Virus record (IMG/VR): IMGVR_UViG_3300032242_001142
Coordinates: 1-34,365 of that record
Direction: 5' to 3' (one strand)
Source: a virus
DNA length: 34,365 bases
Shown: positions 4,177 to 31,352 of the stretch, piece after piece
Layout of the letters: each line of letters begins with the position of its first letter
Position numbering within the stretch: position 1 is the stretch's first letter
Program-made: the position numbers and the translations under genes
The notes under the pieces: model-generated
The model's input: the letters and a program-made list of their open reading frames with translations, nothing else
What the model was told of the DNA's origin: nothing
Database searches by the model: none

Positions 4177-4831
4177 TTTATTTGAAGCGCAAGCCGATTG
4201 GCTGCAACAAAGATGCGGCAAAATAACTGCATCTGAAGTTTGGAAATTGATGGAAAAAGGTCGCAATGGTGAATACTTTGGCAAAGGTGCAAAAACATAC
4301 ATCAAACAGAAAGTAGCTGAAATATTGACTTTGGAAATTGTAAACGGTGGCAGGTCGAACATGGTTGCAATGGAATGGGGTTCAGCACATGAATTTGAAG
4401 CGGTACAGCGATTTGAAAAAGAAAAAGGTTTGTCGGTTGATTATTACGGCGGCGCAAATCCGAAGTTTTTTGAACTCGATGAATTTAGCGGCGGCAGTCC
4501 TGATGGATTAACCGAAGATGCAATTATAGAAGTCAAATGCCCTTTCAATAGCGGCGAACATATCAGCCATTTAGAACTGCAAACCGATATGGATTTGCTC
4601 GATTATGCACCTGAATACTACTGGCAAATGCAAATGAATATGTTAGTGTGCAAAAAGTCAAAAGGTTGGTTTATTTCTTTCGATGGAAGGTTTGCAGACG
4701 ATAAACTGCAAATTCACATCATCGAAGTACCTGCCAACGAAGAAAATATTAATAAGCTAAAAGAACGAATTAACGAAGCCGAAAAGCAAATGAACACTAC
4801 AATCGGACTTCTTCGTGGTATTGAAATTTAA
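4169..4831 (+). CDS. YqaJ-like viral exonuclease (PD-(D/E)XK family)
   Basis: This should be a lambda-exonuclease-type enzyme that resects double-strand ends, producing single strands for the annealing protein encoded just upstream. Motifs fit the YqaJ family. They are RCGKITASEV near the N-terminus, MEWGSAHEFEAVQRFE for the conserved GxxxE helix, GGSPDGL with the active-site Asp, IEVKCPF with the E-x-K pair (near residue 120), and YYWQMQMNML with the following Gln. At 220 residues it has the usual family length and appears intact. The gene overlaps its partner and has a strong ribosome-binding-like site ahead of it. Confidence 0.88.
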   Translation: MGNLFEAQADWLQQRCGKITASEVWKLMEKGRNGEYFGKGAKTYIKQKVAEILTLEIVNGGRSNMVAMEWGSAHEFEAVQRFEKEKGLSVDYYGGANPKFFELDEFSGGSPDGLTEDAIIEVKCPFNSGEHISHLELQTDMDLLDYAPEYYWQMQMNMLVCKKSKGWFISFDGRFADDKLQIHIIEVPANEENINKLKERINEAEKQMNTTIGLLRGIEI

Positions 4832-4842
4832 GAACTTAATTT

Positions 4843-5226
4843 ATGCAAACAACAAATCAAAAACTAATAGGCAGCTATTTGCACCAACTATTGAATCATG
4901 CTGCAATGTTGCGGATATACAGCGAATATTTTTCACAAGCCACATCGGATAAGAACATTCGGCATATTACAAAGCAGATGGATAGCAATATTATTGTAGG
5001 CATTGAAAAGTTATGTGCTGCAATTGGTAACAAAGAACTTAAATCGTTTGCAGATAGAAAGATTGTCGAGAGCCAAAGGATGCTCGATTTGATGGAAATA
5101 ATGGAGTTATGCAGCAGGTTGAATGAAGAAAGCATTTCGATAGTTGCAGAAAGTTTAAAAGTACAATTGAAACCAATTTTAGACGAAGAAACCAAAATGA
5201 TGAATAACCATGACCGACCTATTTAA
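4843..5226 (+). CDS. Unknown all-helical protein (127 aa)
   Basis: The entire sequence is predicted helical with regular hydrophobic spacing, perhaps a helical bundle. I see no catalytic motif or membrane segment. It lies 11 bases after the exonuclease and overlaps the following gene by 17 bases, so it belongs to the recombination/early operon. A role as a structural or regulatory accessory is possible but unproven. Confidence 0.65.
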   Translation: MQTTNQKLIGSYLHQLLNHAAMLRIYSEYFSQATSDKNIRHITKQMDSNIIVGIEKLCAAIGNKELKSFADRKIVESQRMLDLMEIMELCSRLNEESISIVAESLKVQLKPILDEETKMMNNHDRPI

Positions 5227-12632: not shown

Positions 12633-14030
12633 ATGGCACAGCCAAATTTAAGCATAACAAACCGATTAAAATTAGCAGTTCAATCTGTTAAAAACGTATT
12701 CATACCACAGCAATTAATGCAAACAGGTGGTTTGGATAGCGGTTTGTACACACCTCATTTTGTAACTCCGAACCCAAAGAACATCAGCAGCTACATTGCG
12801 CCAGTACAATTTCAACGCCAGCGTCCTGATATTCAAACGTGGAGGGATGCAGTAAACGAAGCAGAAAACGCATGGTATCCGCATAGGGTTAAAATGCAGA
12901 GATTGTATATTGATACAATTCTAAATGGTCATGTGGCAGCTTGTATGGAAGTAAGACAAAATTTAACTTTATTACGTCAATTCAAACTTTTAAAAAACGG
13001 CGTTGAAATTGAGCAAGAAAAAATAAAAGAATTAGTAGGCTCAAATTGGTTTTATGAATTTGTAAAAAACACACTTGATGCCCAAGCATTTGGCTACTCA
13101 CTTATTCAAATAGGCGATATTGTAAACGGTAAAGTAAATTCAGTTAGCGAAGTTCGCCGTTGGAATATAAGCCCTGACCGCTACAATGTTACTTCATTGG
13201 TATATTCATTGAGTGGGCAACCATTTTTAGAGCCGCCGTTTTCTGAATGGTGTGTTTGGGTAAACACTCCAACCGATATTGCACAAAGTCAAACAGGGTA
13301 CGGCTATCTTTACAAGGTTGCGCCTTATGAAATCATGTTGCGGAACATTTTAGGCTTCAATGGTGATTATATTGAATTGTTTGCAGCACCTTTCCGTTGG
13401 TTGAAGACAACTAAAACAGAAGATGATGAACGACAAGCACAAGCAGCTATGTTGGCTCAAATGGGTTCAACAGGTTGGGGGATTGGTGATTTAAACGATG
13501 AATTAGAATTTATCAACGCCAATGGTTCGGGTTCGGGCTGGCAAGGTTATGAAAACTTTGAAAAGCGTTGTGAGGCGAAAATATCAAAACTTATTTTAGG
13601 TCATGCAGACGCATTAGATAGCACCGCAGGTAAATTAGGCAACGACAACGGCGAAAGCCCAGCACAAAAGGCATTGCAGAACATTCAGATTTGCGATGGT
13701 AAATTTGTGCAAAATATTTTGAACAGTGAGTTGTTTCCAAAGTTAGCAGCAATCGGATTAGAGGATTTTGCAGGCTTGACTTTAGAATACACCAACGATG
13801 ATGAATTAGCAGAACAACGTGAACGTGAAGACAAAGCCAATTTAGAAACTGCTAATATTTTATTGGTATTGAAAAATGCAGGGTTCACAGTTTCGCCTGA
13901 ATATGTAAGCGAGCGCATGGGCATTGATTTAAAGTATTTAGAACAGTCCGTAGTGCCAACGGAAGATAGTAAGCAAGTGAGCAACGAAGTAATGAACAAG
14001 CTGAATGAGTTGTACGGACATAAACATTAA
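12633..14030 (+). CDS. Portal protein, Mu gp29-like (DUF935)
   Basis: The portal forms the ring at one capsid vertex through which DNA passes. The match is to the DUF935 family. Visible features are HVAACMEVRQNLTLLRQFKL in the N-terminal third, an internal DAQAFGYSLIQIG, and the C-terminal block SKLILGHADALDSTAGKLG followed by helices that would line the channel. At 465 residues it is near the usual length and is unbroken. It is followed after 3 bases by a Mu F-like minor head protein, the normal Mu order. Confidence 0.85.
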   Translation: MAQPNLSITNRLKLAVQSVKNVFIPQQLMQTGGLDSGLYTPHFVTPNPKNISSYIAPVQFQRQRPDIQTWRDAVNEAENAWYPHRVKMQRLYIDTILNGHVAACMEVRQNLTLLRQFKLLKNGVEIEQEKIKELVGSNWFYEFVKNTLDAQAFGYSLIQIGDIVNGKVNSVSEVRRWNISPDRYNVTSLVYSLSGQPFLEPPFSEWCVWVNTPTDIAQSQTGYGYLYKVAPYEIMLRNILGFNGDYIELFAAPFRWLKTTKTEDDERQAQAAMLAQMGSTGWGIGDLNDELEFINANGSGSGWQGYENFEKRCEAKISKLILGHADALDSTAGKLGNDNGESPAQKALQNIQICDGKFVQNILNSELFPKLAAIGLEDFAGLTLEYTNDDELAEQREREDKANLETANILLVLKNAGFTVSPEYVSERMGIDLKYLEQSVVPTEDSKQVSNEVMNKLNELYGHKH

Positions 14031-14033
14031 GCA

Positions 14034-14831
14034 ATGGATTTCAAAAAGAAAAAAGGTTATCCTGATGCAGCAGTATTAGCACAGCAAGTTTATAGCGGAA
14101 AGGTTACGCCAAAGAATTTGCCGTTAGATGTTTATGTTTTCAACGGCACACAATTAAAAAGTGCAAGTGAAAAAGCATTAAAAATAAAGTTCTCTGAAAT
14201 TGATTACAAAACGCCAAACTTCAAACGTATTGAGGCTTGTCGTAGCAATATTTGGAAGTTTAGCGCAGCGAAAACATTTCACCAGGTTGTACAAATGAAT
14301 GATGCTTTAATTCAAGAAAATAAAATCATTCCTTTTGCGGACTTCAAAGAAAAGGTTGCAGAAATAAACGATAAGTTCAATGATACATGGTTAGAAACTG
14401 AATACAACACAGCATTTGGGCAATCGCAGATGATTGAACAATGGGCAAGATTTGAAGAACAAGCGGATATTTTACCCTATTTGCAATACATAACAAGTAG
14501 CGGCGAAGCCACCTGCGATATTTGTCAGCCATGCGATAATGTTACATTGCCAGTAGATGATGAGTTTTGGGATGAGAACACACCGCTTCAGCATTTCAAC
14601 TGCGAATGTTTGATTATTCAAGTGCCAAGCGATGAAGCGAAAGTAACGCCACAACGTGAAGCCGATAGAATAAGCGAAGATGTAAATCCTTTGAAGCATG
14701 GTATGTTTATGAGTAATGCAGGGAAGTCAGGTATTATTTTCAACAAAGAAACGCCATATTTCAACGTGCCGAAACAATATGAAACATTTGCAGCACACAA
14801 TTTTAATTTGCCCTTGCCAAAAAAGAATTAA
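14034..14831 (+). CDS. Mu F / SPP1 gp7-like minor head protein
   Basis: This minor capsid protein is needed for head assembly and DNA entry. The family pattern is visible in the middle: FNDTWLETEYNTAFGQSQMI, then a metal-binding-like cluster CDICQPCD, then HFNCECLI near residues 165-200. The Cys and His spacing is typical for Phage_Mu_F members. It lies between the portal and the Mu G-like gene, as expected. At 265 residues it is shorter than Mu F itself but similar to other small members. Confidence 0.82.
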   Translation: MDFKKKKGYPDAAVLAQQVYSGKVTPKNLPLDVYVFNGTQLKSASEKALKIKFSEIDYKTPNFKRIEACRSNIWKFSAAKTFHQVVQMNDALIQENKIIPFADFKEKVAEINDKFNDTWLETEYNTAFGQSQMIEQWARFEEQADILPYLQYITSSGEATCDICQPCDNVTLPVDDEFWDENTPLQHFNCECLIIQVPSDEAKVTPQREADRISEDVNPLKHGMFMSNAGKSGIIFNKETPYFNVPKQYETFAAHNFNLPLPKKN

Positions 14832-14837
14832 CTTTGC

Positions 14838-15284
14838 ATGAGTACAAAAAACAAATTTGAGTTCGATAAGGTATTTGATAAATTGCAGCAAATGAAGCCG
14901 AAGTTGCCGCAAGAAATCGCTGCAATCGCTCAAAGTTCATTTGTAAAGAATTTTAATTCAGAAAGTTTTTTCGGTAAAAAGTGGAAAGAAGTTCAACGTA
15001 GGCAGGAAGGGACAAAAGCCTATAAATATCCAAAAACAAAGAAGTTAAGCCGCCGAGTTAAACCGATATTGGTAGGAACAGGGAAATTGAAACGTGAGGT
15101 AAATAGTAGCATTCGTGAGGCTAATTTTAATAAAATAAGATTAGGTGTTGATTTGCCTTATGCAGCAGCGCAAAATGAAGGAACTGCAAACATTCCACAA
15201 CGTGAGTTTATGGGCAATTCACCAGTTTTGGAAAAGAAAATTAAAGATAAAATAAGAAAATCAATTAGCGAAATTTTTAAATGA
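14838..15284 (+). CDS. Mu G-like virion morphogenesis protein
   Basis: The C-terminal half carries the family signature: ILVGTGKLKREVNSSI, then RLGVDLPYAAAQNEGT, then IPQREFMGNSPVLEKKI. Proteins of this group complete tails or join tail to head. The N-terminal part is basic and helical. At 148 residues the length is right. The stop overlaps the next ATG by 4 bases. A promoter-like TAACTTTG occurs right before its start, but the upstream box is badly spaced. Confidence 0.78.
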   Translation: MSTKNKFEFDKVFDKLQQMKPKLPQEIAAIAQSSFVKNFNSESFFGKKWKEVQRRQEGTKAYKYPKTKKLSRRVKPILVGTGKLKREVNSSIREANFNKIRLGVDLPYAAAQNEGTANIPQREFMGNSPVLEKKIKDKIRKSISEIFK

Positions 15285-15808
15285 CAAAGGATTTTTACAT
15301 AGCGATTAGAAACCACATTTTGAACATAGGCACGTTCAAGACTGTGCAGCTATGGAATAATCAAATGAGAGATTTGGAAGGCAAAGAAAACAATAGTTAT
15401 TCATTTGAGTTGCCAGCTTGTTTTGTTGAATTTATCGCACCAGCACAAGTGCAACAATTAGGCGCAGGGGTGCAGTTATTCGAGCCGTTAATAGTTCGGC
15501 TGCATATTGTACATGAGTTTTTAAACAACATTGATAATACGAACGGAATATTAGAACAAGACTTGGATATACTTACATTGAAGCAGTTTGTGTACAATGC
15601 TATGCAAGTGTTTGAGCCGCAGTATGCCGTTATGTTTGTTCGGGTTGCGGAAACAATCAATTACGACCATAACAACGTGGTTGAATTTGTGCAAGATTAC
15701 CAAACTAATTTGATTGATAATTCGCATAGTGATGCAACATTATCAATACCAAGCCCTGTACCAATTACGTTAGTTCCAACATTTAACAAAGTTAATTCAA
15801 TACCATGA
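15281..15808 (+). CDS. Putative tail terminator or tail completion protein
   Basis: The 175-residue protein has alternating strands and helices (ACFVEFIAPAQVQQLGAGVQ, LFEPLIVRLHIVH, and helix EQDLDILTLKQFVYNAMQVF), a layout found in tail terminator and minor tail proteins that cap the tube. No single motif proves it. Position supports the call: it directly follows the Mu G-like gene and overlaps the baseplate J-like gene by 4 bases. Confidence 0.5.
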   Translation: MTKDFYIAIRNHILNIGTFKTVQLWNNQMRDLEGKENNSYSFELPACFVEFIAPAQVQQLGAGVQLFEPLIVRLHIVHEFLNNIDNTNGILEQDLDILTLKQFVYNAMQVFEPQYAVMFVRVAETINYDHNNVVEFVQDYQTNLIDNSHSDATLSIPSPVPITLVPTFNKVNSIP

Positions 15809-16695
15809 CCCCTCGTTCAATAGCCAGCATACAGCAGCAAATGATTAGCTACGCTCAAACCAATTACGGCACGAGTGTAGGGCAACCATTTTATTATATT
15901 TTCCATGATAGCAACGGCAATGCTATTACACCAAGCCAAGCAAATTTATTTATACTCATTACCTACATCGTTGCAGTTGCACTATCGCTATTTGAGCAAG
16001 TAATGTTTTTATTTCAAAATGAAATCGAGGCAATAGTAGCAACATCAGCAGCAGGAACAGCGCAATGGTTACGTGCGCAATGTTTCGCATTTCAATATTC
16101 AGCAACAACGCCGCAAGTGGTGCAATACAATGTAGGCAGCAACACTATTGCTTATCCAATAGTAAATACTTCGTTGCAGATTATTAAGCAATGTGCAATT
16201 CAAAGCAACATCAACAATGTGGTTTTAATAAAAGTAAATACTGCTTCGGCAGGTGTGTTGAGTTCGCCACAATTAACAGCGTTTCAATCTTACCTTAATC
16301 AAATAGTTTTTGCAGGTATGCAGTACAGCGTAATTTCTGCTTTGCCTGATTATTTAATGGTTGGAGTGCAAGTATATTACAATGGTCAATATACGCCAAC
16401 AATTACTACTGACGTACCCAATGCAATCAACAACTATTTAGCTAATTTGCCTTACAATGGCAACGTTGATTTGACTGCATTGGAAGAAGCCATTTTAACA
16501 GTTCAAGGAGTGAATGATGTGGTATTTACCCAAGTGGAAATCAGAGCCAACGGCGTATCAGTTGGCAATGCAACCAAGTTAGTAAACGCTTCAACTACTT
16601 TAATTCCTTTCATTGCTACTTATGCAGGGACTGCCATAATTGATACAGCAACAGGTCGTGATTTAACTTCAACAGTAGTTTATATTCCACAATAA
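15805..16695 (+). CDS. Baseplate J-like protein
   Basis: The protein looks like the wedge subunit of contractile-tail baseplates. An N-terminal helical region leads into GTAQWLRAQCFAFQYSATTP, the hallmark of this group in Bacteroidetes phages. A beta-rich centre with YLNQIVFAGMQYSVISALPD follows, then a C-terminal domain with LTALEEAILTVQGVNDVVFT, as in gpJ/gp47. At 296 residues it is on the small side. Its position is unusual: it lies among head genes before the protease and capsid, about 13 kb ahead of the other baseplate genes. Confidence 0.7.
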   Translation: MTPRSIASIQQQMISYAQTNYGTSVGQPFYYIFHDSNGNAITPSQANLFILITYIVAVALSLFEQVMFLFQNEIEAIVATSAAGTAQWLRAQCFAFQYSATTPQVVQYNVGSNTIAYPIVNTSLQIIKQCAIQSNINNVVLIKVNTASAGVLSSPQLTAFQSYLNQIVFAGMQYSVISALPDYLMVGVQVYYNGQYTPTITTDVPNAINNYLANLPYNGNVDLTALEEAILTVQGVNDVVFTQVEIRANGVSVGNATKLVNASTTLIPFIATYAGTAIIDTATGRDLTSTVVYIPQ

Positions 16696-16697
16696 GA

Positions 16698-17522
16698 ATG
16701 GATTACAACATAAATTTCAATACAGTTACTAAAAATCTTTTGCCAGTAACCAAACGTAAAACAACATTTCAGGCGTTGTTTGATGTGCTATTTGCGAACA
16801 CAATTCAATCATGGAATTTTATTTGGGCAAACAATTATTTATTAGGTACAGATATTTCTAACGCATGGAATAGCGGCAGCACATATAATGCAAATGATAT
16901 TGTAGTGAGCGCAGATAACCAAGTTTATCAATCATTGGTTGCAGCAAATACAAATCACAACCCAACTACAACTACTGGCTATTGGTGGCTTGTTGAAACA
17001 AACTTTGTAGGAGTTTATGAAAGGATTGCATACAACGCACAAATATTGACTTTTGAATATGCTTTGAATAAATGGTTTCGCACAACATTTAGGCAGCCTA
17101 CGGGTGTGCCTGATATTTACATTGTGAATAACCAAATAACACCAAATTGTTTTGTTTGGGGTGGTTCAAAGCCTTCTATATTTTATTATTACAACTTTCA
17201 ATGCTCGCAGCCGATAATTAACAATATGCAAACGTGGGCAAGTGGTACAACATATGCTGCAAATGATGTTGTTGTTGGCTCTAATGGTTCAGTTTATCAA
17301 AGCATTGCAGGGAGTAATTTAAACCACAATCCAACAAGTACCACAGGTTATTGGACTTTTATTAGAACATCGTACTTAACACAATACAACTACACTATTT
17401 ATATACCTACTGCGGTTTGGACTGCATTAGGCAGCAATGCAACGGATAGAAATAATAAAGTACGTAGCTTTGCAGATAAATACAACGTAATTGGCAATCA
17501 ATATAACATAACAACTTATTAA
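16698..17522 (+). CDS. Structural protein with two carbohydrate-binding-like repeats
   Basis: Two near-identical units stand out: AWNSGSTYNANDIVVSADNQ followed by VYQSLVAANTNHNPTTTTGY (about residues 55-97), and TWASGTTYAANDVVVGSNGS followed by VYQSIAGSNLNHNPTSTTGY (about residues 178-222). Each ends in a Trp-containing stretch. The W-x-x-x-x-x-Y-x-x-x-D-x-V...YQ pattern is that of CBM5/12 chitin-binding-like modules. The rest, including the C-terminal KVRSFADKYNVIGNQYNI, looks like a baseplate or tail protein. It follows the J-like gene after 2 bases. A host-surface sugar-binding role on the virion is likely but inferred. Confidence 0.7.
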   Translation: MDYNINFNTVTKNLLPVTKRKTTFQALFDVLFANTIQSWNFIWANNYLLGTDISNAWNSGSTYNANDIVVSADNQVYQSLVAANTNHNPTTTTGYWWLVETNFVGVYERIAYNAQILTFEYALNKWFRTTFRQPTGVPDIYIVNNQITPNCFVWGGSKPSIFYYYNFQCSQPIINNMQTWASGTTYAANDVVVGSNGSVYQSIAGSNLNHNPTSTTGYWTFIRTSYLTQYNYTIYIPTAVWTALGSNATDRNNKVRSFADKYNVIGNQYNITTY

Positions 17523-17524
17523 AC

Positions 17525-18016
17525 ATGAAACAACCAAATAAATTGCCGCAACCAATAGTTGCATTATTGCAGTCAAGATTAGCAGATGAGTATAGCGCAC
17601 ATTTCTTTTATAATGCGGCTGCTAATTGGGCTAATGATAAAGGCTTTTTAAAAGCTGCTGAATATTTTTTAATCGAAGCAGCAGATGAATTAACCCATGC
17701 AAAAGGGATTGAAGATTATTTGGTGGATTGGAACGTAATTCCTGATATTCGAGTTATTGCTCCTTTATTTGTTGATTTTACCAATATTGGCAATGTAATT
17801 GAAAAAGCCTATGCAATTGAATATAAATTGTTGGAAGATTACGATGCAATAAGCAAAACGATATTTGCAAGTGATTTATGTACTTTTGATTTTCTGCAAA
17901 AGTATAGAGAAATACAAGTAAAAGCGGTTGCGGAATACGCAACAAAATTAAATATTTTAGAAGGGGTTGAATTGACAAAAATCAATTTATTGTTAATCGA
18001 AAAAAAATTATTTTAA
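17525..18016 (+). CDS. Ferritin-like iron-binding protein
   Basis: The 163-residue protein follows the four-helix bundle of bacterial ferritin closely. Helix A has LADEYSAHFFYNAAANW with Glu22; helix B has AADELTHAKGIEDYL with Glu55 and His58 spaced as in the E-x-x-H ligand motif. The third helix supplies Glu99 in YAIEYKLL. The fourth has FLQKYREIQVKAV with Gln131 at the usual Gln site. Five of the expected ferroxidase ligands are therefore present; the usual acidic cluster after the Gln is replaced by Lys-Ala-Val. Ferritin oxidises and stores iron. It sits tightly inside the structural operon (2 bases after the previous gene, none before the next), so it is expressed with virion genes. Whether it enters the particle is unknown. 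Confidence 0.85.
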   Translation: MKQPNKLPQPIVALLQSRLADEYSAHFFYNAAANWANDKGFLKAAEYFLIEAADELTHAKGIEDYLVDWNVIPDIRVIAPLFVDFTNIGNVIEKAYAIEYKLLEDYDAISKTIFASDLCTFDFLQKYREIQVKAVAEYATKLNILEGVELTKINLLLIEKKLF

Positions 18017-18841
18017 ATGAAACAAATAGACGAAAGCGCAATTAATAGTCAAAATGGAATGTTATCACCGAGTGGTGTTTTGCAATTTTTGCAAACCATG
18101 ACAAAAGATAGTGTGCAAAATTTAATTATTGGCTTATCGCAAAACATAAGCAGCACGGCATCAGGTGTATTTGCGTTATCAGGCATAAGCAATTTATCGG
18201 GTACTCCTTCAACGCAATGGTTAAGCAATGAAGGGGTAGCGTATTACAATGGTGAATTGTTTTATGTTCCTGTAAGTAATTTAACTATATTGGTAAACAT
18301 TCCTGTTGTGGTATTAGCAACCAACTTTAATAATGTTGCGCCAAATGCAGACCCAGTATTATTTACTGATGGCACAGCCCGAAATGTGTTGCAAACAAGA
18401 ACTTTGCAAATAGTTGATGGCACAAGCGCAACAGCAGGGTACATTTGCGATGCTTCGGCTTTAAAATTTATTACCAACATTGGAAGTTCGACACAGTATG
18501 TTCAAAATGGGGCAGGTGGTTCAACTACTTCAACAATCAATTTAACAGGCGGATTATTTGCACAAAAAAAATGCTATGCAAAAATAACATCTACCTTTCA
18601 ATTGCACGTAGGTAGCGGCATAACAGAAAATGCACAAATAAAAATTACTAAAAATGGAACTGCTGTTTATACAACAATTGAAACATTGGTAGCAGGGTCA
18701 GGAACATTTTATAGAACCGTAACAATAACATATTTTACAGGCACAACATCAACATTAGACTCATGGGATATTTCTATCACTTCGGTAGGCGGTAATTCGA
18801 TAACTATTGCAGCAGTCAATGCACTGATTGAATCTATTTAA
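18017..18841 (+). CDS. Virion structural protein, probably tail fibre or surface
   Basis: The sequence is rich in Ser, Thr, Asn and Gly with repeated short beta strands (STASGVFALSGISNLSGTPS, and later IKITKNGTAVYTTIETLV), as in phage surface proteins. An N-terminal helical segment (SPSGVLQFLQTMTKDSVQNL) may be the attachment part. The C-terminal 100 residues resemble a beta-sandwich of the receptor-binding type. No specific family is recognised. It starts immediately after the ferritin-like gene and is the last gene before the minus-strand island. Confidence 0.55.
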   Translation: MKQIDESAINSQNGMLSPSGVLQFLQTMTKDSVQNLIIGLSQNISSTASGVFALSGISNLSGTPSTQWLSNEGVAYYNGELFYVPVSNLTILVNIPVVVLATNFNNVAPNADPVLFTDGTARNVLQTRTLQIVDGTSATAGYICDASALKFITNIGSSTQYVQNGAGGSTTSTINLTGGLFAQKKCYAKITSTFQLHVGSGITENAQIKITKNGTAVYTTIETLVAGSGTFYRTVTITYFTGTTSTLDSWDISITSVGGNSITIAAVNALIESI

Positions 18842-19018: not shown

Positions 19019-19252
19019 TTATTTTTCGTTTTCATCTAAATTATTATAAACTACTTTCAATTTATCAATGATTGCAGTTGGCAAATTATCATAGTATCGT
19101 TCAATTATCTTACCTACTATGTATGACTTGGAAACCGCATCATTAGCAGCCTCTGCAACAATGTATTTAATGTATTTATGCTTCGGGTAAGCACTTACAG
19201 ACCTTTCTTTTTTGTACTTTTTAAAATATTCGGGACTGCGTTTTGAATCCAT
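19019..19252 (-). CDS. Small basic protein of the minus-strand moron (77 aa)
   Basis: This minus-strand gene begins at ATG 19252 (MDSKRSPEYFKKYKKERSVS). A compact segment follows: HKYIKYIVAEAANDAVSKSY, then IVGKIIERYYDNL. The strongly basic N-terminus and short helices suggest a small nucleic-acid-binding protein, perhaps of the ribbon-helix-helix kind, but the sequence does not settle it. A perfect promoter lies upstream (19280-19311). Opposite orientation and an independent promoter in the middle of a late operon mark it as a moron-type gene expressed separately from lytic genes. Confidence 0.7.
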   Translation of the reverse strand: MDSKRSPEYFKKYKKERSVSAYPKHKYIKYIVAEAANDAVSKSYIVGKIIERYYDNLPTAIIDKLKVVYNNLDENEK

Positions 19253-19279
19253 AATTTTATTGTTGCTGCAATGTTGCTG

Positions 19280-19311
19280 CAAATGTATTGATACGTAATT
19301 GTAATTGCAAA
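19280..19311 (-). promoter_or_regulatory. Perfect minus-strand promoter for the moron
   Basis: On the minus strand TTTG (19311-19308), 20 bases and TACATTTG (19287-19280) make an exact consensus promoter. It drives the genes at 19252-18911 with a leader of roughly 20-25 bases. It overlaps the leader of the plus-strand protease gene (ATG 19332), so the two transcripts run divergently from a very short shared region. Confidence 0.85.
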
Positions 19312-30182: not shown

Positions 30183-31352
30183 ATGCCAACAGTAAAAAAT
30201 ACAGCGCAAACACAATCAGATATTAGCGGCAACATTTACACCAATGGTAATAATTTAGTTACTGCTGCGATGGTGGCAAGTGTTCTGCAAAATATTTCAG
30301 TATCTTACATCAATCGAATAACAGATGCGCCATTATTAGGACTAAAAGCATTTAGCACAACAACAGCTTACGCCGTAGGTGATTGCTGCGTTTATTCGGG
30401 CGTATTATACCAATGTTCAACAGCGCATACAGGCGCATGGAATGCAGGTGATTTTACCGAAGTTATAGGCAGTTCAACTGTTACATTAACAGGTATACAA
30501 ACCTTAACAAACAAAACGCTTACTTCACCGATACTTAATTTTCCGACAATTAACGTAGGCAGCGATGCAACGGGTGATATGTATTACCGCAATGTTTCAA
30601 ACCAATTTGTTAGGCTACCAATTGGAACAACTGGGCAAGTTCTTTCTGTAAATTCGGGAATACCTTATTGGGCAACGGCAGCATCTGCGCCTGTATCATC
30701 TGTATTTGGTCGTACAGGCGCAGTTGTTGGTTCGGCAGCAGATTATAATGGCATTGCAATGACTGGTATTGCTTCATTAAACGGATTGGTTATAACTGCA
30801 AATACAGGTGTAGTAACAACAGGAACATGGAATGGAACAAAAGTAAGTGAAGTGTATGGTGGAACAAACCAATCATCTTATACAACAGGGGATATATTAT
30901 ATGCATCAGGTACTAATACGTTAGCTAAATTAGGGATTGGGGCAGCAGGTCAATTACTTACAGTTACAGGTGGCTTGCCATCATGGGTAACAGCAAGTAG
31001 TGGTGCTGTAATTACTGACATATCTGCATCAGTAACTTTTGTTGGGTGGTCTTCGTTCACGACTAAAAAAGTAATTCAAATTGTAATAGGTAGCTTTGTT
31101 TGCATTCAGTATGAACTAATCGGCACAAGCAATTCAGCCACTACAACAATGACACTACCGAACTCAAATAGCAGTTTGGTGAGAATGTTCAATGCAATTG
31201 GCTATGCACAAGGAAGTGGCGGTGGTCAAACAGGCTTAACGATAATGGCTGCTTCAACAGGGTTAGTAACATTTTATACAGATGCCAATACAACTGCTTA
31301 TCCATCATCAGGTACTAAAATAGCAATCGGACAATTCTTTTACACTAAATAA
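30183..31352 (+). CDS. Tail fibre / receptor-binding protein
   Basis: The 389-residue protein is dominated by Gly, Ser, Thr and Asn with repeated short strands. It includes the fibre motif LTGIQTLTNKTLTSPILNF and later GTTGQVLSVNSGIPYWATAA, which recurs as GAAGQLLTVTGGLPSWVTAS. Near residues 55-95 a carbohydrate-binding-like unit (FSTTTAYAVGDCCVYSGVLY, then QC) is present, like those in the proteins at 11575 and 16698. The C-terminal 110 residues look like a globular receptor-binding tip. It follows the baseplate genes. Confidence 0.75.
   Translation: MPTVKNTAQTQSDISGNIYTNGNNLVTAAMVASVLQNISVSYINRITDAPLLGLKAFSTTTAYAVGDCCVYSGVLYQCSTAHTGAWNAGDFTEVIGSSTVTLTGIQTLTNKTLTSPILNFPTINVGSDATGDMYYRNVSNQFVRLPIGTTGQVLSVNSGIPYWATAASAPVSSVFGRTGAVVGSAADYNGIAMTGIASLNGLVITANTGVVTTGTWNGTKVSEVYGGTNQSSYTTGDILYASGTNTLAKLGIGAAGQLLTVTGGLPSWVTASSGAVITDISASVTFVGWSSFTTKKVIQIVIGSFVCIQYELIGTSNSATTTMTLPNSNSSLVRMFNAIGYAQGSGGGQTGLTIMAASTGLVTFYTDANTTAYPSSGTKIAIGQFFYTK

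Follow-up and report, generated by a model that had tools for sequence, protein, structure and literature searches.

A predicted non-haem ferritin of a phage-only clade encoded among the virion genes of Mu-like and crAss-like phages

A 163-residue protein encoded among the structural genes of an environmental phage is, to judge from its sequence and its modelled fold, a genuine bacterial-type non-haem ferritin (Ftn), and within the sampled sequences it belongs to a phage-only clade. Its gene, which starts with ATG, occupies positions 17525 to 18016 (+) of the window, the 34,365-nucleotide viral stretch that we analysed (IMG/VR record IMGVR_UViG_3300032242_001142). Relatives of the gene also lie in virion blocks of crAss-like and other Mu-like phages. 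We consider it rather probable that the product is an active ferritin that serves to detoxify and store iron in the course of infection, likely after late synthesis, and that its gene was acquired as a cassette.

The assignment draws on Pfam, PDB and fold comparisons. The window protein matched PF00210 (Ferritin) with an E value of 2.8e-16 (60.2 bits, against a curated cut-off of 24.5), its top PDB sequence match was the V. cholerae ferritin 3qz3 (E 8.6e-13), and it matched PHROG 16594, a family of unknown function, over nearly its whole length (E 4.5e-8). In the alignments with FtnA of the E. coli type (9bye, 4xgs), residues E22, E55, H58, E99 and Q131 fell on FtnA E17, E50, H53, E94 and Q127, which we take to be the A/B ferroxidase (di-iron) ligands, and Tyr29 fell on Tyr24, presumably the conserved tyrosine of FtnA. 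Each of the 64 distinct phage relatives has the same residue at all six positions. The mean column entropy of the alignment was 1.35 bits, and none of 100,000 random five-column draws was as conserved as the five ligand columns. The ligand pattern, already proposed in the first-pass annotation, is thus confirmed and is not due to chance. At the positions of FtnA E49, E126, E129 and E130, presumably the acidic residues of the C-site, the window protein carries D54, I130, K133 and A134; the Lys-Ala-Val that the annotation had read after the glutamine is correct and lies in the stretch V132-K133-A134-V135. Since position 134 was Ala or Ser in all 64 distinct relatives, loss of the C-site is a trait of the family and not a peculiarity of the window. 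The description of the ferroxidase centre as near-complete was therefore an understatement: the A/B di-iron site appears complete, and the auxiliary C-site alone seems to be missing.

A comparison of the predicted structure with known ferritins had been proposed as a check. An AlphaFold model built from ten natural relatives (mean pLDDT 88.5) predicted helices at residues 9-39, 42-68, 88-114, 118-145 and 152-162, that is, a four-helix bundle with a short fifth (E) helix, and matched 3qz3 with a TM score of 0.86 and with Z 20.7 (158 residues superposed at an rmsd of 2.1). As modelled, the protein shares with FtnA of V. cholerae (3qz3) and E. coli (1eum, 4ztt) the whole-chain fold including the short E helix, the A/B ligands and the conserved Tyr; it differs from them in sequence (22-29% identity), in the lost C-site, in its separate viral clade and in being the product of a virion-block gene. 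Several other assignments were rejected. Membership in the FtnA subgroup was set aside on the residues found in place of the acidic C-site. Bacterioferritins presumably combine a Glu and a His of the second site, both in helix D, with a haem-binding Met; in the window protein the two helix D residues are Q131 and A134, and L56 follows E55. Dps proteins have their ferroxidase site between subunits and are without an E helix, whereas the Ftn ligands are intrasubunit here and a fifth helix is predicted. Finally, a non-ferritin helical phage protein does not agree with the ligands, the E helix and a Z score of about 20.

The dN/dS values ranged from 0.01 to 0.20 in ten close ferritin pairs, and the family is under strong purifying selection. 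We argue for ferroxidase activity because the di-iron site is intact and invariant, and iron handling together with oxidative protection would fit such a catalytic centre best. Late timing, cage assembly, iron oxidation and a protective effect are what we infer from these data, as follows. The ferritin would be made late with the virion proteins, as its position in a structural operon suggests; Fe2+ would be bound at the complete di-iron site and oxidised with O2 or H2O2; the ferric mineral would be stored in the ferritin cage, and free iron, peroxide and Fenton chemistry would be lowered while the phage replicates and packages its DNA. Two observations count against this explanation: the residues that occupy the C-site positions of FtnA and modulate iron turnover there are absent, and a sister phage (contig L213, see below) does without the gene.

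Phage ferritins as ROS-defence genes are already published, such a role having been proposed for freshwater phages in a passage of PMC6802176. The ferritins treated there belong to the same protein superfamily and also come from phages of water samples; they differ in being listed as accessory genes, and that passage describes neither a virion-block position nor a dedicated clade. Phage-encoded iron proteins of the ferritin superfamily are also known from Lactobacillus phages and Gratiaviridae (PMC6669764, PMC8008677); those are 12-mers of the Dps family, encoded near replication genes or at unspecified places, whereas the window protein is predicted to be of the Ftn type. Our literature search, with many subscription papers out of reach, found no description of a dedicated, near-core ferritin family of virion blocks.

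The family was then delimited by similarity. A profile scan of IMG/VR gave 109 relatives, 80 of which were kept, and the same profile gave no confirmed relative among genome contigs. In tblastn searches of the 50,697 phage records of INPHARED, neither the window protein nor its relative L002 found a match, and L071 found chance-level matches only. No isolate or cultured host was found for the family, the contigs being environmental fragments. The best match in 395 Bacteroidota genomes reached 63 bits. Against a family profile, phage members scored at least 219 bits and the best sampled cellular sequence 70 bits. In a tree with 48 cellular ferritins, fetched with a consensus ferritin query that served for that only, the phage proteins formed one clade with a support of 0.785. 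The phage set had been gathered by similarity to the window protein, so that monophyly is partly built in; the size of the gap in score does not stem from this selection and counts for more.

Looking at the surroundings of the gene, we found it, as the annotation had stated, packed between two ORFs of a structural operon, 2 nt behind ORF 16698-17522 and 0 nt before ORF 18017-18841. The operon, from which the window phage is judged to be Mu-like, encodes a Mu-type portal protein (12633-14030, +; PF06074, E 1.5e-49), a Mu-F-like minor head protein (14034-14831, +; the portal/Mu-F junction is 14031-14033), a neck or tail-completion protein (14838-15284, +), a baseplate-J-like protein (15805-16695, +; PHROG tail/baseplate matches) and a DUF2586 protein. 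When 80 loci were recruited by baseplate J, most of them showed this order as well. The upstream neighbour (16698-17522, +) follows baseplate J where gpI would be expected, which suggests its function, and contains two CBM_5_12-like repeats that stay below the Pfam cut-off; to that extent it is carbohydrate-binding-like, as had been noted. The downstream neighbour (18017-18841, +), for which a surface protein had been thought probable, is a short fibre-like or receptor-binding-like protein, in which a helix precedes a beta-rich part and a conserved N-terminus precedes a hypervariable C-terminus. Its family profile matched PDB 6ov6 ('C24 protein', E 7e-11), and its model (pLDDT 71) gave no convincing fold match in PDB. 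Elsewhere in the window, a second CBM_5_12 protein, this one above the Pfam cut-off, is encoded at 30183-31352, close to where the tail genes end, and two adjacent N6/N4 DNA methylase genes occupy 778-1605 and 1671-2468. In many of the Mu-like operons, small antisense ORFs (19019-19282, -, in the window) separate the fibre gene from that of the Clp-type head protease.

Few Mu-like operons contain a ferritin, and those that do have it at one of three slots. In the window and in contig L001 it follows the gene in the gpI position and precedes the fibre gene; in L029, L036, L040/L252, L250 and the truncated L249 it lies between portal and Mu-F; and in L215 the slot is that between Mu-F and neck, where a ferritin of a different lineage keeps the ligand pattern and has its nearest tree neighbours at a distance of about 3. 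The ferritins of the first two slots are different branches of the phage clade and that of L215 represents another lineage, so at least three acquisitions into one operon type are indicated. A search of related phages for the same gene in the same place, also proposed earlier, thus succeeded in L001, whereas the other Mu-like slots differ and the site is empty in L213. This sister contig, whose J is 93% identical to that of the window, is without ferritin and shows a clean junction; therefore the ferritin is accessory in the window phage type, and an obligatory virion part in this phage is contradicted. Compared with L001 in 60-base windows, the ferritin gene was 92-100% identical and its flanks 33-93%; the block of 92-100% identity spans 17432-18031 and is centred on the ferritin gene, with flanks that are much less alike. 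The dS between the two was 0.15 for the ferritin and 0.46-1.39 for its neighbours. The ferritin is a self-contained cassette recently exchanged between the window and L001 lineages.

Such an exchange, the clean presence or absence of the gene among close relatives and a GC content below that of the neighbouring genes are what one would see with a moron, a recently captured host gene that has no role in the lytic cycle and perhaps aids the host cell. This reading is disfavoured because the clade is phage-only: the window ferritin is 43-58% identical to many phage homologues, while the sampled cellular ferritins do not exceed the 70 bits given above, which does not describe a recent host gene. 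Purifying selection and the near-core status of the gene in crAss-like groups also speak against a moron, and we hold this origin to be improbable. In the window and L001, the slot has a baseplate-region gene on one side and a fibre-like gene on the other, which recalls the Ferrojan Horse hypothesis, put forward for histidine sites in tail fibres (PMC11705849); transposed to our case, the ferritin would load or hold iron in the tail or a fibre and aid binding to iron-uptake receptors. The portal/Mu-F and Mu-F/neck slots, which lie among head or neck genes, do not agree with this, nor does the crAss-like ferritin, which sits behind a gp47-like protein. There is also no link to fibre identity, as the fibre differs between the window and L001 (35%) and the ferritin is 97% identical. 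An iron-loaded tail is thus very improbable.

Further accessory genes were seen near Mu-F and named by eye: a collagen-like, fibre-like gene (L243, 3287-4864), a fibre-like gene (L246, 34-1293) and a possible phosphoesterase gene (L215, 902-2122). Slots close to Mu-F may host virion accessory genes.

We then studied the loci of crAss-like podoviruses. Of 80 ferritin loci, 58 have an upstream neighbour that belongs to a single homology cluster, most of whose proteins are very large, and in 44 of 79 the downstream neighbour is from another large-protein cluster; the clusters were made by single linkage of multidomain proteins, and shared domains may join them. Individual neighbours of the ferritin contain ddrB-ParB, DUF7178, ART-PolyVal, LPD23, GNAT or SprT-like domains. 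Several of these are domains of polyvalent proteins, for which packaging and injection have been predicted (PMC5512222). In relatives, too, the ferritin gene is tightly packed and often overlaps its neighbours, in many loci by a start/stop overlap with a giant gene. No PDB sequence matched the giant protein downstream of the ferritin. Single genes of 3,844 to 3,961 codons or more were met in crAss-like environmental phages of 60-70 kb (L506, 6115-18000, -; L091, 1660-13194, +).

The arrangement was clearest in contig G021, where the order is muzzle, Gly-zipper, two smaller genes (one of them for a homing endonuclease), a 489-aa protein, a 1770-aa protein and ferritin. The muzzle domain was recognised as PF25731 (E 9e-70). 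By profile alignment, the best crAss001 counterparts of the muzzle, Gly-zipper and 1770-aa proteins were gp44, gp45 and gp47, each well ahead of the others tested, and the 489-aa protein in the gp46 position gave no crAss001 match. Direct HMMER comparison of the crAss-like neighbours with crAss001 found nothing, and profile alignment alone gave these matches. The muzzle match was weak in G001 and G007 (2-6% probability), and other crAss-like contigs resemble the G021 arrangement with less firm matches. Membership in a muzzle-gp45-gp47 block was found in G021 only, and the window phage, being Mu-like, has no such block. Mass spectrometry identified gp45, gp46 and gp47 of crAss001 as virion cargo (PMC10172136); the cargo block of that phage (gp44 muzzle, gp45, gp46, gp47) contains no ferritin, whereas relatives of the window ferritin stand directly behind gp47-like proteins. 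As a separate observation, contig L504, recruited by distant portal similarity to G021, encodes another ferritin, of a second, FtnA-like lineage (4449-4982, +), 5 nt behind a portal-like gene.

To avoid selection by ferritin, contigs for the frequency survey were recruited by their portal protein. In the G001 group, 13 of the 16 contigs of at least 38 kb carry the ferritin, and the three others end before the site, about 21-27 kb past the portal; all 13 contigs that cover the site thus have it. In the G007 group it is present in six of seven site-covering contigs, the exception being G444 (L506), where the giant gene is followed directly by the next gene. The ferritin is near-core in both crAss-like groups, yet it can be lost.

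These data raise a tentative alternative, in which the ferritin is packed in cargo space of the capsid or tail and either delivered to the next host with the DNA or used to protect packaged DNA; for crAss-like phages this would add a further cargo protein to those of the gp45-gp47 block. Its place behind homologues of gp44, gp45 and gp47 in G021, the presence of the crAss001 counterparts in the virion, giant neighbours with polyvalent-protein domains, start/stop overlap with a giant gene and near-core status in two groups all argue for it. On the other side, no packaging signal is evident, and a ferritin 24-mer, a cage of about 12 nm, would be too large to pass a tail without disassembly. One family branch sits among small, apparently non-structural genes, and the variable slot in Mu-like phages speaks against a single binding partner. 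That particles carry an iron-oxidising enzyme, which crAss-like phages would eject with other cargo into the host, is accordingly a possibility that we think does not reach an even chance by some way.

Detoxification and storage of iron by a ferritin made during infection remains our preferred explanation. Late synthesis is argued because the ferritin is found among virion genes in several unrelated settings; a late-operon location is in itself a weak indicator of timing, because the late operon makes up most of the genome, and the Mu-like slots alone are unconvincing. Near-core status in crAss-like phages and repeated acquisition in Mu-like phages imply that infection of these hosts is limited by iron or by the oxidative damage that iron drives. 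The adjacency to cargo genes makes it testable whether phage particles contain an iron-storage protein. If they do, this would matter for the iron that phages account for in water, where mainly histidine sites in tail fibres have been considered so far, and with ejection into the host iron handling would start ahead of any phage gene expression. Three BFVD entries of uncultured phages annotated as 'prohead protease' (A0A6J7WIS1, A0A6J7XDU5 and A0A6J7WPK9) also gave ferritin-like fold matches, with rmsd above 8, and are possibly fusions of ferritin domains to head proteins.
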